Source: Membranipora membranacea
Lineage: Eukaryota; Bryozoa; Gymnolaemata; Cheilostomatida; Membraniporidae
DNA: 64,000 nucleotides
Assembly (NCBI GenBank): GCA_914767715.1
Contig: OU612075.1
Location: 744,001 to 808,000, forward strand
Direction: 5' to 3'
Under the pieces are notes generated by a model. It had not been told where the DNA came from and did no database searches. It worked only from the letters and a program-made list of their open reading frames with translations. Made by a program: the position numbers and the translations under genes. This document shows, piece after piece, positions 15,477-43,427 of this stretch; the stretch's first letter is position 1; every line of letters begins with the position of its first letter.

Positions 15477-15581
15477 TAGTTAAAGAGCTCTAACTCTGGT
15501 GGTTCAGTGGCATTACATTTTCATCTCCGGGAGATGATAATGTAATGCCACTGAACCGCCGGAGTTAGAGCTCTTTAACTA
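15477..15581. mobile_element. 105-bp foldback MITE with 9-bp target duplication
   Basis: A nearly perfect palindrome: tagttaaagagctctaactc at the left and its complement at the right, meeting around tcatctccgggagatga. It is flanked on both sides by atacttatc (15468-15476 and 15582-15590). The sister unit at 11939-11947 has one atacttatc and no insert, a clear empty site. A 9-bp duplication suggests a Mutator-like transposase. Confidence 0.92.
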
Positions 15582-16481: not shown

Positions 16482-17990
16482 CAGAGGGCAAATAGTTGTC
16501 TAAACTGAGTTGGAAAGAGGTTACCGGAAGAGACTGAACGCTGTAGCCAATTGTATGCCGTATGGACCGGTGAAAGAGGTTGCCAAAAAGGGATTTTTAG
16601 CAACCTCTTCAAGAAGTTAAATAGAGGTTTTATATCCTTCTCAGGGAAGGATATATCAGGGATAATATTAACTGTCTCTATCCAATTTCGATATTAAGAG
16701 CAAGCTCATTTATTGACAAAGTATATGCATCCTTTTCTCGCAACATTTCATGTTTGTGATAGCAAGTAAATCAATAAAAACCTAGAGCATAAACATAAAC
16801 ATAAAATCGTAAATAATTTTAGATTTGATCCAGATGAACCAATACATATGGACTAACCAAAGCCGTCACCACAGGTGAAAATGAATCCCCATGGTGTTAA
16901 AATATGATGTTTGTAAAGATATTGATTTAAAGGCTGACGAATCGAGGCGCCAGGGTAGAAAGGCATTATTAATGTAATGTGATGCTATTGAAATCACTGC
17001 CTGGATTTATCCGGTTCACCTGCAAAATCACTTTTTTAACATGTCTAAGATCCCAATTTCTATTTAGCCATAATAATCTATTTCGCAAATCTCTGGGATT
17101 GGCAGTTCAATAAGAGCATAGCTTATCACAAATGAAATCAAATACCCACAACAAATACCACACATTATTCTTATGCAAAAGTTTGATGTTATCTTTATTA
17201 TTCATCTCAGTATGGGGTGTAAAGTGTTGAAATTCTATAACGCTTAGAAATCATTGTTTTCAAACAATTTTAAAAAGCGTTTCATAAATGAACTTTATTA
17301 TTCTCATTATTGTATTCAAATTAGAGACTAGATTGTTTAAAAGCATTCTCAAATGCAAATTGGAATTTAGAAATGACTTGAATAGGCAGTGCAGTGAGAG
17401 TATTATTACAGTGAGTGCAGTGAGAGGCATTATTAGTATAGGCAGTGCAGTATTATTTACATAGCTTATCACAACCTAGAATCTATTACCTGATCATTCA
17501 TCAATAATATGGCATAAATTATTGTAAGGCAACATTTAGCATTGTTTATATATTATTCATCTCTGTCAACGAGCAAAATCTGAGATTTTAGCTTACATTC
17601 TAAAATCCCCTGAGTAGCCTGAGTTGAACCCAAAAATCTGAGTAACTCGGACTAAACCTGAGTGGTTGAGAGCCCTGTCGAAAACAATGGGGAGTAAACT
17701 GTTCTCATGCTGGAGCCATACTAATAGATGATAAATACATTAATATTTGAGTGTTGGCTATGTGTTGTCAGTCCAGAAAAGTTATTTCTGCAACCGCCAA
17801 TGGCAAGAAAATGGAGTATAAAAGCAGAAGCATCTACAACCAATTATATCATTTGCTTGGAAATGGGATATCTGGCTCCCTCTGGCATACCTATCAAAGA
17901 CAGGTGATGTCAGAGGATATTGGCTAACAATAAAGCTGCCCATTGGCAACCTCTACAGAAGGTTGCTGGCTAAACCTTGCCGGCTGGGAG
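16482..17990. mobile_element. ~1.5-kb insertion in segmental unit, with LINE 3' tail pieces
   Basis: The sister unit at about 12838 joins ctcag to cctgatacactc directly. Here that joint is interrupted by about 1.5 kb containing 16690-17190 (related to 3480-4370) and 17215-17680 (related to 4870-5250). The right end 'ttgccggctggga' also occurs near 62624-62636. Confidence 0.6.
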
Positions 17991-18064
17991 ACCTGATACA
18001 CTCAACACCAGTCCCACAGCACCATCAACCACACAACTAAATTATCTCTGAAAACTGGTGTGAA

Positions 18065-18578
18065 TAGACAGTTTTCTGAGCTCTTAATTATGCCCCCAAT
18101 TCGGAGTTGTCCTCTCTCCAGTTTGGTACTTTTAACCCATGCCGCATAGGAAAAACCTGCTGAAAGAGGGTTTTATTGAAAACCGCTGATGCTAGGATAA
18201 AAACGATTTTTGATTCAGAGTCTGCACCATTGAAAACCCTGGGAGACAGGGTTTCCAAATCATTGGAGGCTTGACTGTTGATAAGTCTTAATTTTAGTCA
18301 CGAAACTCATGAAAGATTCTGCCAAATTGTCCGCAAAACTGGCAGAAAATGCTATAATTGACTATCCAAATACTAAAATTATTTACCAAACATTGTTCGT
18401 TATGAGTTTTCAATGTTGCAGATTCTGAATCAAAAATAATTTTTATCCTATTATAAGCGGTTTTCAAGATAACCCTCTTTTCAGCATGTTTTTCCTATGC
18501 GGCGTGGGTTGAAAGTACCAAACTGGAGAGAGGACAATTCCAAATTGAGGCCTAAATCAGAGCTCAGAAAACTGTCTA
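18065..18578. mobile_element. 514-bp long-TIR element, copy 1
   Basis: Ends tagacagttttctgagctc and its complement; the inverted arms run for about 165 bases each. The sister unit at 12901-12920 reads straight through (ggtgtgaatgctatgag), so the insertion postdates the segmental duplication. No transposase ORF; non-autonomous. Ends in TA, but no longer target duplication is evident. Confidence 0.88.
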
Positions 18579-19952
18579 TGCTATGAGCTGTCTTCCCCTT
18601 CTTCATATATGAAACGGTTATGCAGCCTTTATATGGAAGATAAGATAAACAGGAAGTACCAGCCAAAAGATTTTTCCTCTTAATTTTAGAACCATTGCTA
18701 AGAATTAGTCTGTGGCATTTAGCATTTATGTATACAAATCACAGTCACGCTTGTAGCCTCATCAGTCCTCCCAGACTTTAGGGTGTATCGGATAAAGTGC
18801 CATAAAATCACTGCGTGCAGCAGGGTGTGGGTTCCTAGACTAATATTTATACCACTGATATACTTTCTTCATGACTAGCAAGCTAGCTGTATATGACCTA
18901 GTTGTCAAGTTTTAGTCTTATGATTCTCTTATCTTTGATAGCCTGCCAAGTTTCTTTTGAAGTTGTCAAATTCGATTGACTTCATTCAACCAGCTAAGTA
19001 TATGTGTGAAATGAGATCTTCACATGCATACAAAGCAAGATTTTAGCTAAAGCACAATCTAGATTTTTATCTTTTGACCAAATGATCCGAGTCTGATGTT
19101 TTTGCTTTGCTATAAGGACAGATTTATTGTGAAACCAAATGTATTCCCAAGAAAGCTGTTTTATAGCAAAACTGGATGTAACGACTTCGTCATTGGTCAT
19201 TGGTGTGCTTTGGTGATACTTGATCCAATAAACAAATGTTAAATGTAAACCCCACAAACAGGATTGATTGATGAATCAAAAAACTAGATTTTAATCTCAT
19301 GACCTAATGAGCCAAGTCGGGTGTTTTTGCATTGCGTCAATGATAGAACTTTCTTGTACAAAGTCCATCTAGTGATCAGGTTATGAGGTTGTGATTTGTT
19401 AGCATTAACCTGACCACTGTCATATACATCCAGTTCTGCCCATAATCAGATACTCAATTATTAAATTACAGTTTATGTGAGCAGATCTTACTACTAAACC
19501 AAATCTCATAGTGAGAAGATCGACTTTGGAGATCATCAAAGCTGTGATATCATCAACCCCAACTGGTCACTGATACCTTCAGAAAAGCTCAGCACGAAGC
19601 CTCCCTAACATACCAGTGAGTGTTAGAAGATTGATAACCATTGTTAAAAACAAAATACAAGACCTGATCCACCTTGATGTACCAGTCAAACGAAATGTGT
19701 CTTAGTTCTAGAACCAATGTTCAGATTTAACATGCTCCATGTAGCATTTATGGATACATCTCACAGAAGATGAACCTTGGACTTTGGGGCAGATTATATT
19801 CATTACTGAATCCAACTCTATGCTGTTGCATCAATAGTTAATTAATAATTTGCATTAATATTTCAAACGGTGATTAAATATCTTACCCAGTATCATTCTC
19901 CGTCTATATTCCCCCTCAGACATCTGATAATTTTATACCCACATTACTTACA

Positions 19953-20781: not shown

Positions 20782-20920
20782 ATGCTCGGTGCAAGTGCTC
20801 GGTTTTTCAACAGGAAGAGTAAAAGTGAGAGAAAAAATAAGAGTGAGAGTGATGGTGTTGATGAGGATGAGAATAAGATTGAGATTGAGAGGGAGGATGA
20901 GGACAGGGATGAGGGACCGA
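20782..20920 (+). CDS. Roco-caspase exon 1 (charged N-terminus)
   Basis: Starts MLGASARFFNRKSKSE and becomes a run of Lys/Arg/Glu/Asp/Ser, so it is probably disordered. The exon ends at a perfect gtaagt donor in phase 1, matching the next exon. Upstream in-frame ATGs at 20713 and 20722 would add about 20 residues including a hydrophobic stretch (GLYYIYYLLSA) like a signal peptide or anchor. I chose 20782 because Roc and caspase domains work in the cytosol, but the sequence does not decide it. Confidence 0.6.
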
Positions 20921-23900
20921 GTAAGTAACCAAAAACTTTTTTGCTAATACCAGCTTACTATTCCCCCGCTCAAACCAGCTTAGATTCCCCCTGCTCATAC
21001 CAGCTTAGTATCCCCCCCCCCCCACCCCGCTCATACTAGCTTCGATCTCAGCAGAACATGAGCATCTGTTGATATACAAGCTTCATAGCGACAAAAATAA
21101 TCTCTTCACTATTATGACCCCCTGTACTTTAGTCAGGGGAATCTCACTAGGTTTGGGGCGATCAAAGGCAGATCTCATTTTGGACCTAATTAGACAGATG
21201 AAATTAAAATTTCCATTTCAAACTCGACAAGATATGATGATTCCGAATCTTGAGCTTGTAAAATAGGGTATGCTCCCATCTCGCAAGATTATTTAGTCAT
21301 TTGCACGCAATTATATTTTCAGTATGGAAAACAAACAGTCAAATTGTATGTTGGTTATTTCTATACAGAAGCCAATAAATTATTTTATAACCTACCAACG
21401 TCCTGGTAAGACCATCACCACAGCAATTGCTTATACCAGGAAGTGTCAGGCTGTACAGAAAAACCTCAATATAATGTTAGGAGTTTTGGTCTCATACATC
21501 ATAAGATGCTAATAGCCCATAATCATATCATATCACAAGGGACAAGATGATTATCAGTATAATCAGATAAATGCCAGATTACACATTAACAAGACCTTGT
21601 TAGGATGACAGCACTGATTGTATATGATTAATATTATTATATTATAGAATATAGAGTTTGGTACAGACACAGTGGAGAGGCAGAGTTAGAGATTGGGAGA
21701 CGAAAATATAGTGGTAATCCGTATTTCAGACGTAGAGGTGAGGCTGGTGAGATCTCAATTACTAGTACTTCCGAGCCCCTGACTATCAGTGAGATAAAGA
21801 GTAGAGTAGGATCTCACTCTATTACTCACATGTTTATATATGACAGTGAGGTACCTGATAGTCTGAGGTCTATAGCTCCTCATCTTACACATCTCTATCT
21901 GGATAATACCAGTGGATCACTTACAGGGTGAGTAGAATTAGATGGAAATTGTAATTATTGTTATGATTATTTCTAATTCATTGATCAGTTGTGAATGCAA
22001 CAATTTGTGTTTTTGAAAATACTTGAACTTTACCTAAACTGCCGCACCAATTGTGCATTCACAATATTAAAATTGCCCCGACTGGGAACAAATTGTCAAA
22101 TGATCTCACCTCAACCCAGCCTGGTATCCACCATAACACCCCTTCCTGGTTTATCATTTCAACAAAGTCTCATTTTCAAATTACCTTACTGTAAAAGAGA
22201 TAACATGATATATGATATTCTTGTAATCAAATATAGATAATTTAGACATAATATGTCCAAATTATTTGATTAGTATATTATGATAGCAATGGGACATGGG
22301 ACAAATCAATTACTGGCTAATTATATTTGATAGACTAAGATAGATGGAGTAACTGTGTAATATAATGTGATATTTGATGATACATGATGAGAAATATTGG
22401 AAATCTTGTATCTTGTATCATGTACTGATTGATTATATATAATATTATTTTGTACATATTTTACAGACTGTCTAAGCTTAGTCAGCTGGAGGAGCTGTGG
22501 ATAGACGATAGTAACTTCTCAGAGGGTGGTCTGCCTCCTGTTATATACAGTCTTACCTCCCTCAGAGTGCTGGTGCTGCGGAGATGTAAGCTATCATCAC
22601 TAGATGACAGGTGAGTCTGGTGTGTGTATCTCAATAGACAAGAGCTTCAGATAAGTTTGAATGGTTTTTCCCTCATCGCTTATTTTCTGAAGTTCAATTT
22701 TTCATTTGTGAGGCTGTATAAAACGATAGGAGGGTTCCAGAAGAATATATTATCCACAATTTTAAAACTTTACACTCTATCAGTTTCAATTTTTGACTCA
22801 TGAGGCTCTTATAGGATCAGTTCTGTTAGTAATGATGTTTATATCAGACAGAAAGGGATAAAATTTGTTCACCACACTGTCAGCGGTTTGCGAGGGCATT
22901 TAAATTAGAAAAGGAAAAATTTGACGGTCCTAAAAAGATGACTGGTGAAGTCTCAACCTGCTCCTGTGATAGATACAACAATCAATAAAACATTGAACTA
23001 CGGCATCCATTATGATTTTATGGAGTAAAATTAAAGTTTCTAATTTTTTAATGTAATTTGGTGTTTGAAAATATACTATAAGATGTGTCAGGAAACTTAA
23101 ACATTTTACATCTTAACAATACATAATAATATTGACAGGCTATCTTGGGCTGAGCCAGCAAATTTAATAGATGCATTTCTTTTACCAATTTACCAGTCAT
23201 CAACACGCAAAATATACAGCAAAGTCAACAATAAAGTTTGGTATGTCGTATTGACAGGCTGAAAAATGGCGGGGGGGGGGGAGGTGCGGGGATGGGATGG
23301 AGATGTTTGAGGATTTTCATTATATTTCCTTTCTCCATGCTAATTAAATCTAATGAATGAACCATAATGTTTATTAGTTATGTTTTTATCCCCCTAATTA
23401 AAATTAAGGCTTTGTAGACTTTGTTTTGCTAGCTAATGAATTTTTTTTATATTTTTTGGTTATAAAAGGGTAAGTTTAATGGCATTGTCATGCCTGCTTC
23501 CCGATATTATTTGATCTTAAATTTGACCAGTTTAGTTAAATCAATATAGAGAAGTTTTAAATTTAGTTTTCATGGTCTAAGTCTAAGTGTTCAATGTGGA
23601 GAGAGCTGTTCCCATGGTACTTGAACCGCGCTCCATACCCAATTTGTGTTTTTGAAAATACTTGAACTTTACCTAAACTGCCGCACCAATTGTGCATTTA
23701 CAATTTTAAAATTGTCCCGACTGGGAACAAATTGTCAAATGATCTCACCTCAACCCATCCTGGTATCCACCATAACACGCCTTCCTGGTTTATCATTTCA
23801 ACAAAGTCTCATTTTTAAATTACCTAACTGTAAAAGAGATAACACGATATATGATATTCTTATAATCAAATATAGATAATTTAGACATAATATGTCCAAA

Positions 23901-26900
23901 TTATTTGATTAGTATATTATGATAGCAATGGGACATAGAAAAATCAATTACTGGCTAATTATATTTGATAGACTAAGATAGATGGAGTAACTGTGTAATA
24001 TAATGTGATATTTGATGATACATTATGAGAAATATTGGAAATCTTGTATCTTGTATCATGTACTGATTGATTATATATAATATTATTTTGTACATATTTT
24101 ACAGACTGTCTAAGCTTAGTCAGCTGGAGGAGCTGCATATAGACTATAATAACTTCTCAGTTGGTGGTCTGCCTCCTGTTATATCTAGTCTTACCTCCCT
24201 CAGAGTGCTGAGACTGTCTCACTGTGAGCTATCATCACTAGATGACAGGTGAGTCTGGTGTGTGTATCTCAATAGATAAGAGCTTCAGATAAGTTTGAAT
24301 GGTTTTTCCCTCATTGCTTATTTTCTGAAGTTCAATTTTTCATTTGTGAGGCTGTATAAAAAGATAGGAGGGTTCCAGAAGAATACATTATCCACAATTT
24401 TAAAACTTTACACTCTATCAGTTTCAATTTTTGACTCATGAGGCTCTTATAGGATCAGTTCTGTTAGTAATGATGTTTATATCAGACAGAAAGGGATACA
24501 ATTTGTTCACCACACTGTCAGCGGTTTGCAGGGGCATTTAAATTAGAATAGGAAAATTTGACGGTCCTAAAAAGATGACTGGTGAAGTCTCGACCTGGTC
24601 CTGTGATAGATACAACAATCAATAAACATTGAACTACGGCATCCATTATGATTTTATGGAGTATAATTAAAGTTTCTAATTTTTTAATGTAATTTGGTGT
24701 TTGAAAATATACTATAAGATGTGTCAGGAAACTTGAACATTTTACATCTTAACAATACATAATAATATTGACAGGCTATCTCAGGCTGAGCCAGCAAATT
24801 TGATAGATGCATTTCTTTACCAATTTACCAGTCATCAACACGCAAAATATACAGCAAAGTCAACAATAAAGTTTGGTATGTCGTATTGACAGGCTGAAAA
24901 ATGGCGGGGGGGGGGGGAGGTGCGGGGATGGGATGGAGATGTTTGAGGATTTTCATTATATTTCCTTTCTCCATGCTAATTAAATCTAATGAATGAACCA
25001 TAATGTTTATTAGTTATGTTTTTATCCCCCCTAATTAAAATTAAGGCTTTGTAGACTTTGTTTTGCTAGCTAATGAATTTTTTTTATATTTTTTGGTTAT
25101 AAAAGGGTAAGTTTAATGGCATTGTCATGCCTGCTTCCCGATTTTATTTGATCTTAAATTTGACCAGTTTAGTTAAATCAATATAGAGAAGTTTTAAATT
25201 TAGTTTTCATGGTCTAAGTCTAAGTGTTCAATGTGGAGAGAGCTGTTCCCATGGTACTTGAACCGCGCTCCATACCCAATTTGTGTTTTTGAAAATACTT
25301 GAACTTTACCTAAACTGCCGCACCAATTGTGCATTTACAATTTTAAAATTGTCCCGACTGGGAACAAATTGTCAAATGATCTCACCTCAACCCAACCTGG
25401 TATCCACCATAACACGCCTTCCTGGTTTATCATTTCAACAAAGTCTCATTTTCAAATTACCTAACTGTAAAAGAGATAACATGATATATGATATTCTTAT
25501 AATCAAATATAGATAATTTAGACATAATATGTCCAAATTATTTGATTAGTATATTATGATAGCAATGGGACATAGAAAAATCAATTACTGGCTAATTATA
25601 TTTGATAGACTAAGATAGATGGAGTAACTGTGTAATATAATGTGATATCTGATGATACATTATGAGAAATATTGGAAATCTTGTATCTTGTATCATGTAC
25701 TGATTGATTATATATAATATTATTTTGTACATATTTTACAGACTGTCTAAGCTTAGTCAGCTGGAGGAGCTTGATATAAGTTATAACGACTTCTCAGTGG
25801 GTGGTCTGCCTCCTGTTATATACAGTCTTACCTCCCTCAGAGTGCTGAGTCTGTATTGGTGTAATCTATCATCACTAGATGACAGGTGAGTCTGGTGTGT
25901 GTATCTCAATAGATAAGAGCTTCAGATAAGTTTGAATGGTTTTGCCGTCATTGCTTATTTTCTGAAATTCAATTTTTCATTTGTGAGGCTGTATAAAAAG
26001 ATAGGAGGGTTCCAGAAGAATATATTATCCACAATTTTAAAACTTTACCCTCTATCAGTTTCAATTTTTGACTCATGAGGCTCTTATAGGATCAGTTCTG
26101 TTAGTAATGATGTTTATATCAGACAGAAAGGGATACACTTTGTTCACCACACTGTCAGCGGTTTGCACGGGCATTTAAATTAGAATAGGAAAATTTGACG
26201 GTCCTAAAAAGATGACTGGTGAAGTCTCAACCTGGTCCTGTGATAGATACAACAATCAATAAAACATTGAACTACGGCATCCATTATGATTTTATGGAGT
26301 AAAATTAAAGTTTCTAATTTTTTAATGTAATTTGGTGTTTGAAAATATACTATAAGATGTGTCATCTTAACAATACATAATAATATTGACAGGCTATCTT
26401 GGGCTGACCCAGCAAATTTAATAGATGCATTTCTTTTACCAATTTACCAGTCATCAACACGCAAAATATACAGCAAAGTCATCAATAAAGTTTGGTATGT
26501 TGTATTGACAGGTAGAATAATGGCGGGGGGGGGGGTGGGGATGGGATGGGGGAGATTGAGGATTTTCGTTATGTTGCCTTTCTCCATGCTAATTAATTCA
26601 AATGAATGAACCATAATGTTTATTAGTTATGTTTTTATCCCCCCTAATTAAAATTAAGGCTTTGTAGACTTTGTTTTGCTAGCTAATGATTTTTTTTTAT
26701 ATTTTTTGGTTATAAAAGGGTAAGTTTAATGGCATTGTCATGCCTGCTTCCCGATTTTATTTGATCTTAAATTTGACCAGTTTAGTTAAATCAATATAGA
26801 GAAGTTTTAAATTTAGTTTTCATGGTCTAAGTCTAAGTGTTCAATGTGGAGAGAGCTGTTCCCATGGTACTTGAACCGCGCTCCATACCCAATTTGTGTT

Positions 26901-29900
26901 TTTGAAAATACTTGAACTTTACCTAAACTGCCGCACCAATTGTGCATTTACAATTTTAAAATTGTCCCGACTGGGAACAAATTGTCAAATGATCTCACCT
27001 CAACCCATCCTGGTATCCACCATAACACGCCTTCCTGGTTTATCATTTCAACAAAGTCTCATTTTTAAATTACCTAACTGTAAAAGAGATAACACGATAT
27101 ATGATATTCTTATAATCAAATATAGATAATTTAGACATAATATGTCCAAATTATTTGATTAGTATATTATGATAGCAATGGGACATAGAAAAATCAATTA
27201 CTGGCTAATTATATTTGATAGACTAAGATAGATGGAGTAACTGTGTAATATAATGTGATATTTGATGATACATTATGAGAAATATTGGAAATCTTGTATC
27301 TTGTATCATGTACTGATTGATTATATATAATATTATTTTGTACATATTTTACAGACTGTCTAAGCTTAGTCAGCTGGAGGAGCTGCATATAAGAGGTAAT
27401 GACTTCTCAGTGGGTGGTCTGCCTCCTGTTATATCCAGTCTTACCTCCCTCAGAGTGCTGAGTCTGTCTCACTGTGAGCCATCATCACTAGATAACAGGT
27501 GAGTCTGGTGTGTGTATCTCATTAGGTAACAACTTCAGATAAGTTTGAATGCTTTTTCCCTCCATGATTATCTGAAGTTGAGTTTTTGACTCACGAGGCT
27601 GTATAAAAAGATAGGAGGGTTCCAGAAGAATATATTATCCACAATTTTAAAACTTTACACTCTATCAGTTTCAATTTTTGACTCATGAGGCTCTCATAGG
27701 ATCAGTTCTGTTAGTAATGATGTTTATATCAGACAGAAAGGGATACAATTTGTTCACCACACTGTCAGCGGTTTGCAGGGGCATTTAAATTAGAATAGGA
27801 AAATTTGACGGTCCTAAAAAGATGACTGGTGAAGTCTCAACCTGGTTTTGTGATAGATACAACAATCAATAAAACATTGAACTACGGTATCCATTATGAT
27901 TTTATTGAATAAAATTAAATTTTCTAATTTTTTAATGTAATTTGGTGTTTGAAAATATACTATAAGATGTGTCAGGAAACTTAAACATTTTACATCTTAA
28001 CAATACATAATAATATTGACAGGCTATCTTGGGCTGACCCAGCAAATTTAATAGGTGCATTTCTTTTACCAATTTACCAGTCATCAACACGCAAAATATA
28101 CAGCAAAGTTAACAATAAAGTTTGGTATGTCGTAATGACAGGCTGAAAAATGGCGGGGGAATGGGATGGGGGGATGGGATGGGATGGGGAAGATTGAGGA
28201 TTTTCATTATATTTCCTTTCTCCATGCTAATTAATTCAAATGAATGAACCATAATGTTTATTAGTTATGTTTTTATCCCCCCTAATTAAAATTAAGGCTT
28301 TGTAGACTTTGTTTTGCTAGCTAATGAATTTTTTTTATATTTTTTCGTTATAAAAGGGTAAGTTTAATGCCATTGTCATGCCTGCTTCCCGATTTTATTT
28401 GATCTTAAATTTGACCAGTTTAGTTAAATCAATATAGAGAAGTTTTAAATTTAGTTTTCATGGTCTAAGTCTTAGTGTTCAATGTGGAGAGAGCTGTTTT
28501 GATGGTACTTGAACCGCGCTCCATACCCAATTTGTGTTTTTGAAAATACTTGAACTTTACCTAAACTGCCGCACCAATTGTGCATTTACAATTTTAAAAT
28601 TGTCCCGACTGGGAACAAATTGTCAAATGATCTCACCTCAACCCAACCTGGTATCCACCATAACACGCCTTCCTGGTTTATCATTTCAACAAAGTCTCAT
28701 TTTCAAATTACCTAACTGTAAAAGAGATAACATGATATATGATATTCTTATAATCAAATATAGATAATTTAGACATAATATGTCCAATTTATTGGATTAG
28801 ATTATTATGATAGCAATGGGACATAGAAAAATCAATTACTGGCTAATTATATTTGATAGACTAAGATAGATGGAGTAACTGTGTAATATAATGTGATATT
28901 TGATGATACATTATGAGAAATATTGGAAATCTTGTATCTTGTATCATGTACTGATTGATTATATATAATATTATTTTGTACATATTTTACAGACTGTCTA
29001 AGCTTAGTCAGCTGGAGGAGCTGCATATAGGAGGTAATGACTTCTCAGTGGGTGGTCTGCTTCCTGTTATATCCAGTCTTACCTCCCTCAGAGTGCTCGA
29101 TCTGTCTGTCTGTAAGCTATCATCACTAGATGACAGGTGAGTCTGGTGTGTGTATCTCATTAGATGAGAGCTTCAGATAAGTTTGAATGGTTTTTCCCTC
29201 ATTGCTTATTTTCTGAAGTTCAATTTTTCATTTGTGAGGCTGTATAAAAAGATAGGAGGGTTCCAGAACAATATATTATCCACAATTTTAAAACTTTACA
29301 CTCTATCAGTTTCAATTTTTGACTCATGAGGCTCTTATAGGATCAGTTCTTATAGTAATGATGTTTATATCAGACAGAAAGGGATACAATTTGTTCACCA
29401 CACTGTCAGCGGTTTGCACGGGCATTTAAATTATAATAGGAAAATTTGACGGCCCTAAAAAAGATGACTGGTGAAGTCTCAACCTGGTCCTGTGATAGAT
29501 ACAACAATCAATAAAACACTGAACTACGGCATCCATTATGATTTTATTGAGTAAAATTAAATTTTCTAATTTTTTAATTTAATTTTGTGTTTGAAAATAT
29601 ACTATAAGATGTGTCAGGAAACTTAAACATTTTACATCTCAACAATACATAATAATATTGACAGGTTATCCTTGGCTGAGCCAGCAAATTTAATAGATGC
29701 ATTTCTTTTACCAATTTACCAGTTATCAACATGCAAAATATACAGCGAAGTCAACAATAAAGTTTGGTATGTCGTATTGACAGGCTGAAAAATGGCGGGG
29801 GGGGGGCGGGGATGGGTTGGGGGAGATTGAGGATTTTCATTATATTGTCTTTCTCCATGCTAATTAAATAAAATCAACCATAATGTTTATTAGTTATGTT

Positions 29901-32900
29901 TTTATCCCCCCATTGTTAAAATTAAGGCTTCGTAGACTTTGTTTTGCTAGCTAATGAAATACTTTTTGGTTATAAAAGGATAAGTTTAATGGCATTGTCA
30001 TGCCTGCTTCCTGATTTTATTTGATCTTAAATTTGACCAGTTTAGTTAAATCAATATAGAGAAATTTTAAATTTAGTTTTCATGGTCTAAGTCTAAGTGT
30101 TCAATGTGGAGAGAGCTGTTCCTTCTAGGATACAGGTGCTTGGACCCATGGTACTTGAACCGGGCTCCATACCCTTGCCCTTGGAAGATCTGGTAATTCT
30201 TTGATTCGTTGGTTTCTTTTGTCATGCTGAGAAAATTGGGTGTTTATACTGTTGCATGGGCGAGGGATAACAAAGTGTAATATAAAAAGAATATGAGGAA
30301 TGTAAATGTGTATCGAAAAACCAGAAGGGATCTTTTCACTGCATGTGAGGTGTGAGGTATTCTGCATTGAATTCGGACGCCACAGATCACAAGTCCACAC
30401 CATTAACATTTAGACCACTCCTGACTCCTATTTTCAATAGTGAAATTTCCTGTGGTTCAGTTTGTCGTGTTTGTCGACGTCCCTTGATAATCAGATGAGA
30501 CCAAAGTCCTGCAAAAACTCATGTGGACCATATTGGGAGCAGAATATAAACATTCCTTTATTTTAGCTAACAGCATTTTTCTCATATTATCGATTCACCA
30601 AAGATTTGCCCTATATTCTGTAAGAAATAGGTGTCTGAAGTTATGTAGATCTATGACAATTCAAATATATCGAAATATATGGTTAACTATAAATACCTCA
30701 TCGGAAACAATGAAATACAGTGTAGGAAGGAGTCAGGGAATAAGCAGACAATTTTGCCAACAGAATAATTCCAGGTGTATTATTTTATTGATTTAAATGG
30801 AGGATTGTTTTGAATTACTAAAAATATTGCATTAATATAAGTTGAAAAAAATTTCTTGAAGAAGTCATTTAGACTGACCTTTGTAGTTTGTGTACTAAAT
30901 TCTAAGCTGGATCGTTTTTATCTGTTTTTATCTTAATATTATTTACCATAATATATTATATAGATAGTATCAAATTAAACGTGTAAATTCTGGTTCAATT
31001 AAGTATTTTGAGCATAAGATGCATATAAATATAAATATAACTAAATTCCTTAAATTTACATGGTGATAAGATTTCAGATCAATCACAACACTAACTGTGG
31101 ACTTAGATTCAAATATACGTTTTCCAAATCACACGTGATCAAAATATAAAAGGAGAATATACATTTTCCAAATGTAAGTGACCTGCTCTAATGATCACTC
31201 ACATAATAAAGTGCATCATCATCCGTTCAATAATGAGGGAAAACTATAATGGGTGAAAACTCCTAAGATCAGACAACCGCCATCCACTGAGATTTATGTC
31301 AATATTCAAATCGGGTCAATTTTACCATTTACTCATGATAAAGTACAGGTGCAGCTTTTGTATTTAACCATCCCAGTAATCCCAACAAAGATATTGTAAT
31401 CTTACTTCCAGGACGGATAATGTATATTTTAATCTGAGACCGCAGTAAGCGTGGTGTTTTATCTCAAATAGTTATTTTTAGGATTTTAGTTTTAGAACAA
31501 AAAAGTGATGAAACAGGACTTAACATTGTTAGCTGCTTGCTAAATATTTTAGACGCTTTTTATTCTACTTACATTAACACTTACTTTTATGTATTGACTG
31601 CATGTAGGGATTGTCATAATTAGGTAACAAATTGGGAATTTTGAGTGTATAACCAAAAATCTGTCTGTTGTCGCACGTACATCATTGTAATAACCCTCAA
31701 TTTCAAAGCCAAATAAGTCATAACATAGATAACAAATACTGGTGGATAGTTAGAAGGGTATAAAACTCAGAAATTTTAAAATTCAATTCATGTGCTAAAT
31801 GCAGAAAGAAAATATGGCAGTTGTGTCTGCAATTTTAACACTGAGTTTTAACATCAAATGTGTCAGTCTGTCATTCCCCATTTTAGTGTCACCTACATTA
31901 TTATATACAGATTATTGTTTTGTCTCTAATTGCTTTATTGACTTCCTCTCAATTTCATCTATTCTTATTCTGTCTTTTATAGCCTGGATAGTCTTATAAG
32001 ACTAGAGAGGTTAGATCTCCGCCTCAACGAATTCAAATCACTGCCTGCTGTTGTGACCAGACTGAAGTCTCTCACACATCTGGATCTGCCTTACATGAGA
32101 TCTCTAGAGGAGCTTCATCCAGCAGTGATAGACTTACCAAACCTGATAGAGCTGGACTGTAGTGAATGTCATAGTCTCAAATCTCCTCCATATGCAGTCT
32201 GTAAACAAGGATTACCTGCAATCAGGAAATACTACGCAGATCTAGCTGAGAAATCTGGTGTCAAGCGACCGATCATTTCTGCAGCAGTCATCGGGAACAG
32301 AATGGCAGGAAAAACTAGTCTGATAAAGAGTCTGAAGAGTCGGACACGAGAGCTCACACATAGAGATGAGTCTGCTGAAGACGATGAGACTACAAGAGCG
32401 TTTGAAGTCAATGAGGTATCCATGGGTGAGAATATGCTGAGAATGTTTGACTTTGGTGGTGACCAAGTTTATCGCATATCATACCAGATGCTTATTAGGC
32501 CAAATTATATCCCGATTGTGGTTATAAACATGGAGCAGTTTGATCAGCTAGTCAGGTCAGAGAACATTGAAGAGGCCACTAAACAGCTGTGTGTTGAACA
32601 TCTCGCTCATTTGTACCTGCCCTGTCCCAAGTTGGGTCCTCCATTTCTCGTCCTAACTCATAAAGACAAACTGTCTCCTGAACTCTTTGATGAAAGGAGA
32701 GCTGAGCTGCTTGATGCTGTTGAGAAACTTCGGAATGAGATGCTTGCAGAAGAGGCAGTCATCCTGCAGGAAAAACAAAGGAAGGAAAAGTTACAGGATA
32801 GAAAGATGATAACAACGATTGATCACTTCTCAGCAAGAGGTGTGAAGATATTCAGTCTGCAGGACATATTTGAATTTGGCAAAAATTCGGATGAGGTGGA

Positions 32901-35900
32901 CAATATCCTTTCTCTACTCGACGCATTGATTCTGAGATGTAACAGGCACTCGACCAAAATTCCCTTTATTTGGGAGAAAATAGCACGTTTTATCGATGAC
33001 CAGCTTGAGCCCTTCATTCGAGTTGAGGATATATTGAAATCTTTTCCCACACAAGGCCCTCTGATTGTAATCAGATATATGCATAATGAAGGCAGGTTGA
33101 TGTGGTTTGAGAACGAAAGTATGCTGAGCGATGTTGTCTTCCACAATATCTCCAAAATCACAAAGGTGATACTTACGCTGTTTGATCACCGTCGTGGTGA
33201 AATGTGGGACAAAAGAGTGGCTACTTTCAGGCCCTTCTACTTTGATAGGCGTAGAGTTACTGCCGAGAAGTACAGCGAGCTTGTTGATACCTTCAAGGGT
33301 TGTGGGGTCCTTGACGAGCGTCTGCTTAGAGGTCTATTTGCTTTTCCTGAAGACAGGGCCATCTGTCTTCTGAAAACTTTCTATCTTCTTTGTGGACCCA
33401 TCCAGAGAAATCATGCAAAGGAGTACATCATCCCCTACCTCTCACCAGATCTCATCGTGCTCCGTTCTCCTTCTGCCGGTCTTTTGAGAATAAAAATGGC
33501 TGTGAGGTTTGACAGTTTACCTCCACCATCTTACGTCTACCACCTGCTTGTAGTTTCCTTTTTGAACCTTTTCACTGATCATCGTTATCAGATCAAAGCT
33601 GCAAAGAATGGATCATCTGTTACTCATGGTCAGAACGTAACAACTCTCCTTCACAATCACATCAGGCATGAGATCTTACTCTGCACTGACACACCAGTAG
33701 AACAGCTTGATGCAGCCTGGAAGAGAGTCTTTGAAGTATTAGAAACGATTCTCAACAAATTGAAATCGGTCTGGGTAGCTGCTCATCCTGTGTGTACATT
33801 CTACTGCGCTCACTGCCTCCGCTCTGAAGAGTTAGAACCTGACGTGGTGAGAGATCCTGACTGGTACAGACCACCAGAGGATCCTGAGACAGACCAGCCC
33901 TTCAGCCAGCGGTTGGATAACTTCACAGGAATCGATCCAGTACCATGTGGTAACGACAGCTCTGAGGGAGGACCTCCCACAGTGCCCTCACCACTCAGAT
34001 ATCCGTGTGAGTAGCCTTTATGAATAGTATTGAATTATTGACAAATTACTGGATCTACTGTATACCTGTCATGCTCTGAGCCATTGTATAATTATAAATT
34101 CCTCCCATTTGACAGGTTTTGCGTTGACAGCTGCCGAGAAGAGTCAAATCAAAGACTACCTGATCCGTCTTCCAGCTGTACCAGCAGTACCTAATGGTAG
34201 GTTAAAGCTTTTAAACAGTCTTTGTGATGATGGTGTCAGGTGACATGTGAGGTGTTAGATATTCTGAGAATGGAGAAGCTTGTTATTCACTTAATTTTCT
34301 CTATCAGACTAAAAAGATCACTAAGTGATCTGTTTTTTCTCTTTTCCAGAAGCTGCAGCCGTAGACAGAGCAATGATTGAGGAGATAATGAAGGAGATGA
34401 GAGAGAAACCAGCTTTTATAATTCTGGATCCTCAGATAAATAATGTCGGACTCTCAGCCAATCAGGTTACACTAACTCCAGCTGTATATCTTCATCTATT
34501 CTTCGATGATAACTTGCCTTTTATAATATTGCATGAAAGCCGTTTTTCTGTGGTTAACTTTTTAGTCATTGGGGATTATTTCTGTAAACAATACGCATTC
34601 TTCTGGAGGCTCTTTTTTCCGATCTTATTACTCATGAGAATTAATTGTGTTGAGTGATTTCTGCAGATAAATCACTGCGTAGACAACTATAACAGGAACA
34701 AACATCGCTTGCATTGATACTGTTTCCTTTTATTTCCAGTATACAATGACTGAGACACGAGGGAGAGCACTCCTAATATCTAATGAGTACAAACTGCCCA
34801 ACGGCTCATACAGGAAAGGCTCAGAACATGACTATAGAAATATGAGAACTCTTTTTGAGGACTTTGGGTTTGTTGTTGCAGGTGGTCATCAGAACTACAC
34901 AGCAAAGGTACTGATTCAGTTAATATCCTTAGTAATGAATTGAAAATATAATATGATTTTCTTATCTATGGTATGTGCTTATACTTGAAGACCCTTGCTT
35001 TTTTCTGTTGTAGGGAATAGTTGATACAATCCATAGGGAGACACAACTGGTGGATGAAACAGGTGAATCTGTCTATAAGAACCTCGGAGTGTTTGTACTG
35101 ATTATCGCAAGTCACGGTTTGGAAGGCTGTGTAGCGGGTGTGGACGATAAACTAGTAAAACTGGCTGACATATACAACCTCTTGTCTGCTCGGAACTTTC
35201 CAGCCATGACTGGCAAACCAAAGCTACTCATAATACAAGCCTGTGGTGGAAGTAAGTGTAACAATAACAATCCATGAGCTCTTTGAGTAGCCAACTGTCC
35301 ACATCCAATTAAAAGCTTCTTTATGAATTAGTTACGCAAATGTGTTAAATATTGGATAAACCGGTACAGGAGGTTTCTGAGCTAAGAGAGTGTAAGGTTT
35401 AATGTTGTTGTGAATATCAGGGTCAAGGGCAGATATGTCAGAGTAATCAGCAGGTATAATAAGTGCAGTAGGTTTCGCAATCATGACACATGCATGGTAA
35501 AGGTCTTGCTACATGAGCCCACGAAATGCGTGGAATTGTCTTCCCACGCGTGGTAGGCGTGGCTCCATAGGCTAAACACACCCACCTTGTGACAACACTG
35601 CTAAGTGAGTGGCCAATGAGCCATGACCAATGAGTAAGAGTAATGGCCAATTAAATACGCTCTATTGTACCAACTGGCCAATGACAGAAGCGTAGGTTCA
35701 CAACGTGGTTAACAACACGAACATGCTGGTCTTTGAAAAGACGCATCGTTAGCATGGCCAACGGCGTGGTTTGGCATCAACAACGCGTGTAATTGCCTCC
35801 CCACGCGATTTCGTGGGCCTGTCTAGCTACACCTTAAGTGTTGAACAATTTGCTACCAAATTTAACAGGGCTCACTCTTGTTTACATGTTTTCCTGTCTA

Positions 35901-37935
35901 TGTGCCTAGACTGTATTCTTCTGATATCTGGTTCTGGTATCAGCTTCTGGTGATCGTCCTTACAGGTAGCAGAGAGATGTTGTTAGATACTACAGACTCA
36001 GTTCCCTCAATCTCAGAGCTGAGTGCAGCTGCACCTGAACCTCTCCCCACTACCTCTGATCTAGCAGTGACATCATCAGCACCTAGAGAAGGAGATCTGT
36101 ATCAGACAGGAAGTGATTTCATACAGCTATTACCTGAAGTAGACAGTATCAACGAGACAATATCAATGGCTGATCTGTTAATCATGCAAGCAAGTTTTGA
36201 CAGTAAGTTACAGATCTTAAATGAACTTAAAGTTGAAGCAAATGAGCAAAATAAGCTCAAAGCTGGCAATGATATTGAAGATGAGAATATATGGTAGTTT
36301 ATTGGAATCACTTTATTCTACAACAACGCCTTCCCTCCGCATCCTAGAGTTGTTATAAAATTTATCAGTCCCATCAAGTGGCCTAAATTCAGATTTATAT
36401 ATATTTTATAGCATTCGCGTCTGTCAGATCATCGGGCACAGGATCAACACTCATCAGAGCACTAGTTGTGACATTTTACAAGTTTGCTGGACAGTTTGAT
36501 GTTGTAGCTTTAGCTGAATTGGTAAGTGGTTGATGGGCATGAAAAACATTGTGAATGAAAAAAACTTGATGAAATTGTGAACATAATGTGAAGCAAGCCT
36601 AGACAATCCAAACTTAACTGTGCAAGGACAAGCAAAAACACCAAAACACATGCGACTACAATTCAGACAATCAAATTTTATGACATGATGAGCATCATCG
36701 CTTTGCTTCTCTGTTGTTTTTGGCCCGAATCATATGCATCTTGTTAAACTACCTTTTCTTTTATCACGCAGATCAGAGAAGCAGTCAGTAGATATGGAGT
36801 AGAGCTTACTCAGAAGTATCTGCCTCTATATCCAGGTCAGAAGGAAGTCTATCTCGCTCAGATGCCTCGAATATCCAACACATTCACAGACCTGAGAAAG
36901 TTATACCTCAGACCTGGAGTTAATATGAGAAAGGCTGGTGAACATCCACAATCTCTGACAGATCCCAGATATCCTGATGGTAATACTGATACTACTCTAG
37001 AATGGTTACCAGGTGAGTAGAGTACTGCTGTCTTATCATTGAAGTTTTTAGGTACAGATGATAGTCAGGGTTCAGATGAATAGCTGCTTGCTGTGGTTAG
37101 ATATCAGACCTTATGTTAGGTAATCTAAGGATATTTATTCAAAATTTTCGTGGCCTATTATCTCGAGTAGAACATTTTAAAGATCTAAGACAAATTTTTT
37201 GCATCAAGCCTGCCCCCTCAACAAATGACTCTACACGCACACTTGTGACTTTTTGAGGTTTCATTACACCAAATTCTCTGGTTGTCGTTGACTGAGTTTT
37301 TTATGGCACAACCATTGTATTTGTTAATTTATAGGTCTGAAATCGATTATCTACTTCATGAGCTCTATAACAAACAATGACGATGATAGTCCCCAGCTCA
37401 ACACATATCTTACAGAGCTTTGATATACTTTACCCTATTGTAAATGATATACAATCAGGTTTTCTGGTTTTAATACAGAATATTTGGCTCTCTGTCTGTG
37501 CTGCAGAGTGCTCTTAACCGCATGTTTTTCTTTGTGATTTATTTAATAGATTGTTCCAGAGATCTTGGATCTGTCATACTTAAAGTGCAGTGATAAAGTA
37601 ATATTTACATTTGTTATCAAGCATTTACTCATTCTTTTTTTAATTAAATGGGGCCAAAATAACATACCATAGTTAGCCACTGTTATTGTCATATTACAGA
37701 TCGTATAGCAGACGATGACATAAATAATCCCCAGTCTGGAACTAACACTTATATCAGATGGAATGTTCTTAAGAGGAGAAGAGTGCCTGCTACTCCAGTT
37801 GCTCCAGTTGCTCCAGCTACTCCAGCTGCTCCAGCTACTCCGGCTGCTCCAGATATTGCGGCTGCTCCAGTAGCTGCTCCAGTAGCTGCTCCAGTAGCTG
37901 CTCCAGTAGCTGCTCCAGCTGCTCTAGCTCCATGA
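20782..37935 (+). CDS. LRR-Roc-COR-caspase receptor-like gene (15 exons, two alternative last exons)
   Basis: I built this spliced gene by hand; all exon junctions keep one open frame, giving about 1,529 residues with the distal last exon and about 1,480 with the proximal one. Domain order: charged N-terminus (1-46), leader domain (47-139), five 48-residue LRR exons (140-379), three or more LRRs at the start of the big exon, Roc GTPase (P-loop at about 484, DFGG at about 536, THKD at about 605), COR-like region (about 690-960), linker (about 1055-1120), caspase p20 (His about 1210, Cys about 1253), acidic linker, p10, tail. Roco proteins are intracellular GTPase switches and caspases are Asp-specific cysteine proteases, so a cytosolic sensor triggering cell death is inferred. 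No kinase follows COR, unlike LRRK. The exact first exon is uncertain. Confidence 0.88.
21648..21927 (+). CDS. Roco-caspase exon 2 (leader domain and LRR cap)
   Basis: 280-nt exon between an acceptor at 21641-21647 (attatag) and a gtgagt donor; entered in phase 1, left in phase 2. It encodes KYRVWYRHSGEAELEIGRRK and, near its end, LRR-like text (SIAPHLTHLYLDNTSGSLTG) that runs straight into the first LRR exon. The first about 60 residues match no domain I recognise; they may be the N-terminal cap of the LRR solenoid. Confidence 0.85.
22467..22610 (+). CDS. LRR exon copy 1
   Basis: 144-nt symmetric exon (phase 2 on both sides), 48 residues, about two LRRs. The framework LSKLSQLEEL, GGLPPVI and LTSLRVL is shared with all copies. 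Variable residues: W-I-DD-SN after LEEL, E before GG, and V-L-RR-C-K after LRVL. This copy has the most divergent variable residues of the five, and it is the only one joined to exon 2. Confidence 0.9.
23139..23172 (+). pseudogene. Vestigial second LRR exon in array unit (also 24775, 26393, 28023, 29665)
   Basis: In every unit, about 670 bases after the live exon, an acceptor-like tattgacag is followed by gctatcttgggctgagccag. This matches the start of the LRR exon at 43156 (actatccgggctgagtcagc) but loses LRR sequence afterwards and has no donor in place. It looks like a decayed second LRR exon, so the ancestral unit may have held two. Confidence 0.5.
24105..24248 (+). CDS. LRR exon copy 2
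   Basis: 144-nt symmetric exon with the acceptor tattttacag and donor gtgagt shared by the array. Variable residues are H-I-DY-NN and R-L-SH-C-E. By eye it differs from copy 1 at roughly 18 of 144 bases, and the changed codons are almost all amino-acid changing. About 170 bases of the following intron differ at only about four positions. Confidence 0.9.
25742..25885 (+). CDS. LRR exon copy 3
   Basis: 144-nt symmetric exon. Variable residues are D-I-SY-ND and S-L-YW-C-N in an unchanged framework. Its repeat unit is about 25 bases shorter than the others, mainly because of a small intron deletion near 26361; the exon is intact. Confidence 0.9.
27355..27498 (+). CDS. LRR exon copy 4
   Basis: 144-nt symmetric exon. 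Variable residues are H-I-RG-ND and S-L-SH-C-E. Two framework positions are altered: the conserved Leu after C-E is Pro (CEPSS) and the last Asp is Asn (SLDNR). The Pro sits where the LRR core wants Leu, so this repeat may be slightly distorted. The splice sites are intact. Confidence 0.88.
28993..29136 (+). CDS. LRR exon copy 5
   Basis: 144-nt symmetric exon. Variable residues are H-I-GG-ND and D-L-SV-C-K, and GGLPPVI is changed to GGLLPVI. It is the last exon of the array and would splice over about 2.8 kb to the large Roc exon (phase 2 to phase 2). Confidence 0.9.
30173..31982 (+). other. Intron between LRR array and Roc exon
   Basis: About 1.8 kb of unique AT-rich intron after the array. 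Short frames here (30521-30796, 31799-31999) have no motif and no in-phase splice sites. Confidence 0.6.
31983..34006 (+). CDS. Roco-caspase large exon: terminal LRRs, Roc GTPase, COR-like region
   Basis: 2,024-nt exon, entered in phase 2 after a cttttatag acceptor, left in phase 1. It opens with classical LRRs (LERLDLRLNEFKSLPAV, LTHLDLP, LPNLIELDCSEC). The Roc motifs follow: G1 GNRMAGKTSLIKSL, G3 MFDFGGDQVY, G4 VLTHKDKL. The next several hundred residues (IPFIWEKIARFIDDQLEPF onward) resemble the COR domain of MFHAS1/LRRK-type Roco proteins. The P-loop Lys and Thr are present, so GTP binding is expected. The last about 50 residues are Pro/Asp/Glu-rich and probably a flexible linker. Confidence 0.92.
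34116..34196 (+). CDS. Roco-caspase linker exon
   Basis: 81-nt exon (acceptor ttgacag, donor gtaggt), phase 1 to phase 1, encoding FALTAAEKSQIKDYLIRLPA and a short Pro/Val-rich end. It links COR to the caspase part; no domain recognised. Confidence 0.8.
34350..34465 (+). CDS. Roco-caspase linker exon 2
   Basis: 116-nt exon, acceptor cttttccag, weak donor gttaca, phase 1 to phase 0. It encodes a helical acidic stretch (RAMIEEIMKEMREKPAF) followed by LDPQINNVGLSANQ just before the caspase fold. It occupies the prodomain position, but I see no CARD or death-domain pattern. Confidence 0.75.
34740..34907 (+). CDS. Caspase p20, first exon
   Basis: 168-nt phase 0 exon starting the peptidase C14 fold: GRALLISNEY is the first beta strand. 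YRKGSEHDYRNMRTLFEDFG matches the caspase pattern R-x-G-(x)3-D-(x)3-L-(x)3-F-(x)2-G-F. The Arg of YRKG is in the place of the arginine that helps bind the substrate aspartate. Confidence 0.9.
35014..35251 (+). CDS. Caspase p20, catalytic exon
   Basis: 238-nt exon, phase 0 to phase 1, with perfect gtaagt donor. It carries the catalytic dyad: His in IIASHGLEGCV (35113-35115) and Cys in LLIIQACGGS (35242-35244). The pentapeptide QACGG replaces the usual QACRG, a tolerated position in the family. Both catalytic residues are present, so the protease is predicted to be active. Confidence 0.93.
35517..35818. mobile_element. ~300-bp MITE in the caspase intron
   Basis: Inverted ends gcccacgaaatgcgtgg and ccacgcgatttcgtgggc, with internal cgcgtgg motifs. 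It lies wholly inside the intron between the catalytic p20 exon and the linker exon. It is more GC-rich than the surrounding DNA and contains several ccaat boxes. Confidence 0.7.
35966..36202 (+). CDS. Caspase intersubunit linker exon
   Basis: 237-nt exon, phase 1 both sides. It encodes a long Ser/Thr/Pro/Glu linker with several Asp residues (LLDTTDSV, LPTTSDLA, LPEVDSI) and ends with ADLLIMQASFD, the strand that begins the small subunit in caspases. Asp-containing sites here could be cleaved during activation. The linker is longer than in typical effector caspases. Confidence 0.85.
36412..36521 (+). CDS. Caspase p10, first exon
   Basis: 110-nt exon, phase 1 to phase 0. TFASVRSSGTGSTLIRALV aligns with the small-subunit region that carries the S-W-R and G-S-x-(F/L)-I elements of caspases. 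Here the Trp is replaced (ASVRS), while the Arg and the Gly-Ser are kept. AGQFDVVALAEL is the following helix. Confidence 0.85.
36772..37012 (+). CDS. Caspase p10, second exon
   Basis: 241-nt exon, phase 0 to phase 1, acceptor cacgcag, donor gtgagt. It encodes IREAVSRYGVEL (p10 helix), then KEVYLAQMPRIS and the tail LRPGVNMRKAGEHPQSLTD. The second half of this exon has a decayed copy at 59358-59472. Confidence 0.85.
37335..37423 (+). CDS. Alternative last exon A (short tail)
   Basis: Acceptor aatttatag at 37326-37334, entered in phase 1, open for 29 codons to TGA. It ends NNDDDSPQLNTYLTEL, which resembles the start of the distal last exon (ADDDINNPQSGTNTY), so the two seem to be duplicates. 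A possible poly(A) signal ATTAAA lies at 37643-37648. Confidence 0.65.
37700..37935 (+). CDS. Alternative last exon B (Pro/Ala-repeat tail)
   Basis: Acceptor catattacag, entered in phase 1 like exon A. It encodes RIADDDINNPQSGTNTYIRW, a basic patch LKRRR, then a Pro-Ala-Val-Thr repeat tail to TGA at 37933-37935. The basic patch could act in localisation, but that is inference. AATAAA at 38260-38265 is a plausible poly(A) signal. Confidence 0.7.
37779..37932 (+). repeat. GCTCCAGT-type minisatellite inside coding exon
   Basis: Tandem units of 6-12 bases (gctccagta, gctgctccag) encode repeated A-P-V-A and A-P-A-T. All length changes seem to be multiples of three, keeping the frame to the stop. 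Confidence 0.85.
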
Positions 37936-42640: not shown

Positions 42641-43155
42641 TCAATATCAATATTTATGAAATAACAATTAATGTACTCAGTCAGCTATTCGACTCTTTTC
42701 CTTACAATATTGACATAATTAAATGATAATCATGTATGTATGTATTTATGTTCCTCCTAAAATCAGCAGTGTGATGTACTGGAGTGAATATATAAGGTCT
42801 GTTGTGATAAATAAGGGTCCGCTACGCCAGTCTGCTCCTCACCTCCGCTAAAAGGTCATCCCCCAGTGCTAAATACTCCAATCAAAGTTAAAATGCACCG
42901 TCAAGTCAAGCGTTCAGCACAGCTTCATCCCAGTCCGGGCCGTAAAAAAACAGTCAATAGAATTAAATAGAAAAGAGGAACTAGGAAACATTTTATGATA
43001 TCTGCTTATCTATTAATTTGCACCGCTGGGGGGCCGTCAAGCGGGGGAGGGGGAAGTCTGGGGGGCTCAGACTAGGTTTTATGTTGAGTTGACAAATAAT
43101 TAGGAATCTTGTACACCTTGATTGCATATTACAACATTTTATACTCATTTGACAG

Positions 43156-43296
43156 ACTATCCGGGCTGAGTCAGCTGGAGAAGCTGTATATATCATACAA
43201 TCATTTCTCAGTGGGTGGTCTGCCTACTTGTATATACAATCTAACCTCCTCAGAATGCCGAACACGAGGGACTCTAATGACCTCAAGAGAAGACAG
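43156..43296 (+). pseudogene. Isolated, frameshifted copy of the LRR exon
   Basis: The gacag acceptor, gtgagt donor and following intron bases match the array units. The first half reads LSGLSQLEKLYISYNHFSVG, clearly LRR. Then a base is missing in the 'ctcc' run, and the text becomes TSSECRTRGTLMTSREDR instead of the LRVL-x-L framework; other small gaps bring the exon to 141 nt. It has no neighbouring Roc or caspase exons. It is a relic of a paralogue or of an older, longer array. Confidence 0.75.
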
Positions 43297-43427
43297 GTGA
43301 GTCATGTGTGTGTATCTCAAAAGGTAAGGGCTTCACTCAAGCTTAAAAGTTATAAAATCAATGGAACAGCCATGAAGCTGCTTACCTTTAACCTTTAAGT
43401 TGATGTGAACCGTGAGTCATCTGTGTT

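Follow-up and report, generated by a model that had tools for sequence, protein, structure and literature searches.

Hypervariable leucine-rich repeat exons in a clustered family of predicted LRR-Roc-COR-caspase receptors of the bryozoan Membranipora membranacea

A 64,000-nucleotide stretch of the Membranipora membranacea genome (contig OU612075.1, forward-strand positions 744,001 to 808,000; hereafter the window) carries a tandem array of short leucine-rich repeat (LRR) exons that differ from one another more than their introns do. The array belongs to a predicted 16-exon gene whose spliced model encodes 1480 aa in the order LRR-Roc-COR-caspase. We think it probable that this gene is one of a cluster of LRR-Roc-COR-caspase receptors, NLR-like but without NACHT, in which diversifying selection acts on the LRR contact surface while conversion proceeds among intact genes. 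The LRR-GTPase-caspase architecture fits a putative immune or self/non-self role, and the predicted receptor is probably intracellular. Non-vertebrate animals lack antibodies when they discriminate microbes and foreign tissue, and little is known of the variable receptors that they use. The locus offers a concrete candidate from a large clustered family, with one predicted chain that combines a GTPase switch and a caspase with a variable sensor made of LRRs. It also offers a clean natural experiment in which selection and gene conversion would vary a few codons and hold the intervening sequence constant.

Exon and intron divergence in the tandem array

Self-comparison and a five-way alignment confirmed what an earlier note, made from the bare sequence, had described: five tandem units of ~1.64 kb, each with a 144-nucleotide LRR exon. 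The array comprises the following features.

~22001..30174, forward strand: tandem array of five ~1.64-kb units, each an intron tail, a 144-nucleotide exon and an intron head (self-comparison, five-way alignment)
22467..22610, forward strand: LRR exon C1, two 24-residue repeats, phase 2-2 (spliced model)
24105..24248, forward strand: LRR exon C2 (spliced model)
25742..25885, forward strand: LRR exon C3 (spliced model)
27355..27498, forward strand: LRR exon C4 (spliced model)
28993..29136, forward strand: LRR exon C5 (spliced model)
27522..27594, forward strand: divergent intron tract of unit 4, similar to introns found elsewhere in the gene cluster (alignment)

Between copies 1 and 2, 19 of 144 exon bases differ, whereas the 100 bases flanking the exon show 1 difference on the 5' side and 2 on the 3' side, close to the figures first given. 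Across all ten pairs of units, the exons differ at 10-23 of 144 positions (7-16%), the ~470 intron bases 5' of them at 0-17 (0-3.6%), and the ~1 kb of intron 3' of them by 1.6-6.4%. Equal exon and intron divergence, the outcome at odds with the earlier claim, is not what a proper alignment gave: exons at 7-16% stand against 5' introns at 0-3.6%. Units 2 and 4 are identical over all 470 bases before the exon and differ at 11 of 144 positions inside it. Over the five units, 31 of 144 exon columns vary, compared with 117 of 1449 intron columns (Fisher P 2.6e-6), and columns with at least three different bases number 8 of 144 and 4 of 1449, respectively (Fisher P 1.3e-6). Codons that keep their amino acid in all copies have 28.2 silent sites, of which 2 are variable, with 2.28 expected at the intron rate; thus, the framework of the exon seems no older than the intron.

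The variation is concentrated in few codons. Eight of them (11, 13, 14, 15, 36, 38, 39 and 41) hold 30 of the 40 minimum changes in the array exons. These eight, and the seven termed x codons below (11, 13, 14, 36, 38, 39 and 41), were picked post hoc, after inspection of the data. Across the 35 full exons of this kind in the genome, the x codons encode 9, 10, 9, 7, 6, 11 and 6 different residues, in that order, with 14 different codons for the 11 residues at codon 39. In the LRR motif L-x-x-L-x-L-x-x-N/C, whose x residues face the concave surface, variability sits at x positions three to five and at the residue following C; the first two x of the motifs are mostly constant across the 35 cassettes (E, E and R, V). 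The earlier view that changes fall on the strand x positions thus stands in part: 6 of 10 x positions vary in the window (Fisher P 0.046), but the first two x of each motif are invariant there. The framework is indeed mostly fixed, with a difference of 0.068 over the 595 pairs of 35 exons.

The excess of exon over intron divergence holds on both sides of the exon in the window array (array C), in array A, in one pair of array B and in array F, but not family-wide. Over the same 595 pairs, the mean difference is 0.444 at the seven x codons and 0.068 in the framework, compared with 0.204 in the preceding 120 intron bases and 0.086 in the following 120. The high 5' value reflects the presence of at least two intron types. 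The earlier description of the pattern as the reverse of normal was too strong, because selection that opposes gene conversion is already described as giving tandem copies a divergence peak in one exon, as in opsin exon 5 (PMC3924837; here and below, citations refer to the portion of each paper available to us).

The predicted gene and its paralogues

The introns of the gene model are all GT-AG with consistent phases. Because the LRR cassettes are symmetric (phase 2-2), any number of them keeps the frame. Besides cassettes C1-C5, the model consists of these exons.

20782..20920, forward strand: exon 1 from the first ATG, charged N-terminal region (spliced model, gtaagt donor; start codon guessed)
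21648..21927, forward strand: exon 2, LRR cap (spliced model; kin exons beside the 10 other cluster genes of the same contig, 81-88% DNA identity)
31983..34006, forward strand: exon 8, 2024 nucleotides, last LRRs, Roc GTPase and COR-like region (Pfam, structure-sequence matches, protein relatives P0001-P0013)
34116-34196 and 34350-34465, forward strand: linker exons 9 and 10 (spliced model)
34740-34907, 35014-35251, 35966-36202, 36412-36521 and 36772-37012, forward strand: exons 11-15, caspase p20 and p10 (spliced model, Peptidase_C14, CED-3 match, His and Cys motifs)
37335..37423, forward strand: exon 16 with the stop codon (spliced model; 100% match in gene E)

Pfam assigns the ends of the window protein, with LRR_4 at E 3.6e-28 and Peptidase_C14 at E 1.2e-26, spanning 1-229 of the 233 positions of the latter model. 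LRR structures are among the matches by sequence, and the nearest solved relative of the caspase part is CED-3 (E 2.2e-20). Roc scores 28 bits in exon 8, against a cut-off of 27; its nearest solved relatives are LRRK2 and chains named 'Rab family protein', which we take to be bacterial Roco. C-terminal to Roc lie ~450 residues that can be aligned across 13 sequences, with a weak COR-A match (E 0.11). No NACHT or NB-ARC is among the 14 Pfam families found at E 0.1 in the window protein.

Protein searches with the Roc-COR exon returned 16 matches. Thirteen are unnamed proteins (sources jgi, ena and lgn), one of them at 98% identity, and a weak named match is a Corticium candelabrum protein at 29% identity. 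A search with one cassette reading frame yielded zero candidates, and none of 8000 scored candidates for the caspase part reached E 0.01; no named relative of the whole architecture emerged from these searches. Scans of viral and prokaryote contigs detected no relative.

We counted paralogues in the genome from which the window comes (339 Mb in 18 contigs), where the window is C11:744001-808000. One cassette used as a DNA query gave 38 matches, of which 35 are full exons (one is a codon short) and 3 are partial; all lie on contig C11, in the interval from 631 kb to 1.54 Mb. These DNA match counts are lower bounds. A protein search recovered the same 35 stop-free exons together with weaker LRR exons on C11 and elsewhere. 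Every one of the 35 is open, has acag...gtgagt borders and encodes a distinct peptide; they are spread over 11 genes of C11, paralogues within one genome, with 1-5 cassettes per gene. A silent donor library of cassettes was not seen by the DNA search of the genome, which found just three partial matches beside the 35 open exons. Nor does the locus resemble an incomplete, VLR-like germline gene with flanking cassettes: the gene model is complete, and 35 of the 38 DNA matches are open exons within 11 gene models. The window exons are 84-93% identical, above the 80% that marks repeat receptors of high internal conservation, and have hypervariable sites as such receptors do (0.444 at x codons against 0.068 in the framework).

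The order cap, LRR, Roc-COR and caspase p20, absent from the earlier note, holds in the window gene and in 10 of 10 other C11 genes. All 11 carry the p20 His and Cys motifs (SHG, QACxG) and the Roc P-loop GNRMAGKT, while caspase p10 was not fetched or is incomplete in some of the others. Genome-wide, the Roc-COR family has at least 66 exons, 65 of them stop-free (66 of 258 candidates scored). A same-strand caspase match lies no more than 6 kb downstream of 41 of these 66 and upstream of none, among the 140 of 515 caspase candidates that were scored. Seven of the 25 exons without a listed match belong to C11 genes whose caspase exons were found directly, which raises the count to 48 of 66. Contigs C9, C3, C5 and C1 hold further large clusters of Roc-COR exons, many with a caspase match close downstream.

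Two pieces related to the gene lie downstream of it in the window. One is a degenerate cassette, listed here.

43106..43335, forward strand: decayed LRR cassette of the array family, 73-74% identical to exons C1-C5, with the second repeat out of frame (DNA matches)

A piece at C11:1152813 scores equally to it. The other, at 59360-59474, is 91% identical to a stretch of caspase exon 15 (36900-37014) and starts where a dispersed repeat ends (59359-59360), which suggests that a mobile repeat transported this gene fragment or disrupted it.

Selection, conversion and competing explanations

Over the 35 exons, the ratio of replacement to silent differences per site (pN/pS) is 2.82 at the seven x codons and 0.48 at the remaining forty. 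Among pyrimidine-ending codons at positions 11, 14, 36, 38 and 39, T<->C switches number 0 of 149, despite at least 29 changes at the first two bases; blind mutation would be expected to produce ~7 (P 0.0019). Inclusion of codon 13, which seldom ends in a pyrimidine, adds 1 switch among 9 codons (P 0.006), and further inclusion of codons 15, 16 and 27 gives P 0.016. Because pyrimidine third bases hardly switch and pN/pS at the x codons is 2.82, change appears to be largely chosen by amino acid. The earlier note had offered diversifying selection, targeted mutation or conversion from a variable donor pool. Selection is favoured by these ratios and by the third-base test, and conversion is supported as well, with intact paralogous genes as the donors; targeted mutation, in its blind form, fares poorly. 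Blind hypermutation was accordingly set aside on the T<->C test (P 0.0019, or 0.006 with codon 13). Adenine-targeted mutagenesis of the kind driven by diversity-generating retroelements is also disfavoured, since 26 of 35 codons 13 end in A whatever their first two bases, although no search for a template or reverse transcriptase was made.

Conversion between genes is visible where intron tracts of one type sit in genes of the other. A ~70-nucleotide tract 3' of the unit 4 exon is similar to introns of other genes, and the opposite case is seen at exons I4 and K2. The Roc-COR exons fall into two long-separated lineages, with silent divergence (dS) of 0.02-0.04 inside one and 0.05-0.11 inside the other; dS is 0.89-1.06 when the window gene (gene C) is compared with the five genes in the lineage to which it does not belong. 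The LRR framework differs between lineages by 0.068 (306 pairs), the same as overall, so the cassettes form one pool across lineages. The cap exon does not sort by Roc-COR lineage either. At the x codons, cassettes of one gene are no more alike (0.445, 46 pairs) than cassettes of different genes (0.444, 549 pairs), and the x codons of strands 1 and 2 are uncorrelated (Mantel r -0.003). The strand modules WIIVNN, WIEGSN, DISYND, DLSVCK, DLSGCQ and DLSFCQ recur with different partners, while one module pair (I4, K2) recurs with the same partner.

Several observations weigh against selection with conversion, or limit it. In the window alone, pN/pS at the eight codons is just 1.18, compared with 0.71 in the remaining codons and 1.41 for the whole exon. 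The dN/dS check that the earlier note proposed for exposed codons comes out well above 1 with 35 exons (2.82) and little above 1 with five. Silent differences are themselves raised at variable positions. In the window, pS is 0.450 at the eight codons and 0.047 elsewhere; over 35 exons, it is 0.180 at x codons and 0.108 elsewhere, and a minimum-tree count finds silent changes three-fold up at x codons (8.0 changes over 4.1 sites, compared with 20.8 over 31.5 sites). At the eight codons, fit improves by 5.3 log units under a model of multi-base replacement. The supply of change at x codons may be raised, or the modules may be older; import of older modules by conversion would yield both the raised silent differences and the better multi-base fit. 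A codon model with branch lengths fixed from the introns gives omega about 30 at the eight codons of the five copies. The fit of a model with omega 1 and a local rate raised 30-fold is no more than 1.4 log units away, and five copies cannot separate that from selection.

Further such points come from the flanks and from other loci. The first 100 intron bases after unit 4 differ from those of the other units at 15-18 of 97 positions, an exon-like level, and look like an imported tract. Shuffling appears incomplete, because strand-1 x codons correlate weakly with the adjoining introns (r 0.097, P 0.036; r 0.167, P 0.006). At C8:18284664-18318495 (L029-L031) lie LRR cassettes whose gene is probably the one with the Roc-COR exon at 18262576. 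One neighbouring pair there differs at 1 of 260 bases before the exon, 10 of 138 within and 12 of 260 after. Fresh duplicates at the same locus are alike at x codons (three copies at 0-1 of 138 differences, two pairs at 0 of 135 and 2 of 132), so divergence is not automatic. This mix of near-identical and diverged cassettes indicates that copies start alike and can diverge at sensor positions. In the protein itself, Roc drops to 26.6 bits in the whole chain, slightly below the cut-off of 27, and COR-A reaches only E 0.11. Finally, the x codons were chosen after the data had been seen, and all the evidence comes from one genome.

Diversifying selection with conversion remains the account we favour, and it suggests the following mechanism. 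The concave LRR face would contact a ligand, which would place the x codons under diversifying selection. Duplication and gene conversion between intact genes would homogenise introns and framework, and the same processes would spread new strand modules and alter cassette number. Ligand binding would then switch the Roc-COR GTPase and gather the caspase domains, and the cell would respond to microbes or non-self cells by dying or by signalling through cleavage.

One alternative is compatible with this account. The cassettes could be alternatively spliced, Dscam-like exons, so that one gene would yield many sensors. Equal phase and near-equal splice borders put every subset in frame, and genes carry 1-5 cassettes, but we judge it unlikely: the near-identical introns leave, as far as we can infer, no obvious copy-specific signal, and joining all the cassettes simply gives an ordinary longer LRR.

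Alternatively, the exon differences could be old and merely kept, with homogenisation of introns and framework but not of the x codons, where selection would block conversion; no rapid new substitution would be required. A divergence peak under conversion is a known signature of such a process (PMC3924837), modules are common to distant genes, and silent differences are up at x codons. Retention would also predict silent differences one base away, whereas pyrimidine third bases at five x positions are unswitched, and the window framework codons look as young as the intron; we hold it to be doubtful. More speculative is a repertoire of anticipatory recognition built on Roco GTPases, individual-specific and perhaps varied in the soma or by splicing, with strand modules reshuffled among at least 11 loci; we would not expect it to prove right.

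A directed mechanism, in which new x codons would arise in germline or soma by mutagenesis that is targeted or copied from a template, with selection secondary, seems to us improbable. The 5.3-log-unit lead of the multi-base model, the excess of silent differences at x codons and the window's omega of nearly 30, which is more than selection by itself would readily give, are what such a process could explain. It sits poorly with the absence of T<->C switches (0 of 149 at five x positions, 1 with codon 13), which fits blind hypermutation badly, with the A-ending codons 13 (26 of 35 whatever the first two bases), which disfavour copying at adenines, and with new C8 duplicates nearly identical in the exon. 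An assembly or sequencing artefact, to which near-identical tandem units are prone, is very improbable: 35 of 35 exons are open and distinct, the changes fall at replacement positions of x codons as errors would not, the array sits in a 23.4-Mb contig, and a like pattern occurs on C8.

Other window features and known systems

The remainder of the window contains repeats. Positions 8780-19677 hold nested repeat blocks of ~0.4-1.1 kb at 78-93% identity, and two short frames sampled within them have no Pfam match. A minisatellite-like array with periods of 108, 166 and 274 bases occupies 59877-61200. On the minus strand, 51310-51387 matches an Rfam tRNA model at 32.5 bits, against a threshold of 29, and is negative in ARAGORN; it is perhaps a tRNA-derived repeat.

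In a paper on Dysidea avara, COR and CASc are among the abbreviations of an NLR figure, and the available text does not describe an LRR-Roc-COR-caspase architecture (PMC12909245). A search of the open-access literature, as far as its texts were available and with subscription journals and preprints outside its reach, found no description of such a protein.

The ROCO proteins LRRK1, LRRK2, MFHAS1 and bacterial Roco share the order LRR then Roc. They carry a kinase or no effector, whereas the proteins predicted here end in a C-terminal caspase. Clustered receptor genes under diversifying selection and conversion are a feature of plant NLR families. The zebrafish NLR family shows the same combination (PMC4852459). 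Plant and zebrafish NLRs differ from our predicted receptors in their NB-ARC or NACHT switch, and in zebrafish the selected part is B30.2, not the LRR. Because NACHT is absent, the window receptor is not an NLR.

Lamprey VLRs combine a fixed framework with variable concave positions. A conversion-like process joins their LRR modules (PMC13428168). Their germline genes are incomplete and are completed by somatic cassette assembly, whereas the genes here are complete and the donors seen are intact paralogues; for this reason the window receptor is not a VLR. Dscam likewise has arrays of similar exons (PMC3236188), but these encode Ig domains and are spliced in a mutually exclusive manner.

In architecture, the likest invertebrate proteins combine LRRs, Roc-COR and an immune effector domain: sea anemone NG1 (LRR, Roc/COR GTPase, TIR_2; PMC5094078) and two Aplysia TIR-LRR proteins with Roc-COR (PMC9334734). 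Both have TIR in place of the caspase, and the available portions of these papers do not mention a hypervariable cassette array. In mode of evolution, the Podospora anserina HNWD NLR genes (het-d, het-e) of high internal conservation are alike in having near-identical sensor repeats under concerted evolution, with some hypervariable sites under diversifying selection, and they feature variable repeat number and regulated cell death (PMC12222747). HNWD proteins pair WD40 repeats with an NLR switch, whereas the Membranipora genes pair LRR cassettes, in separate exons between ~1.5-kb introns, with Roc-COR and a caspase.

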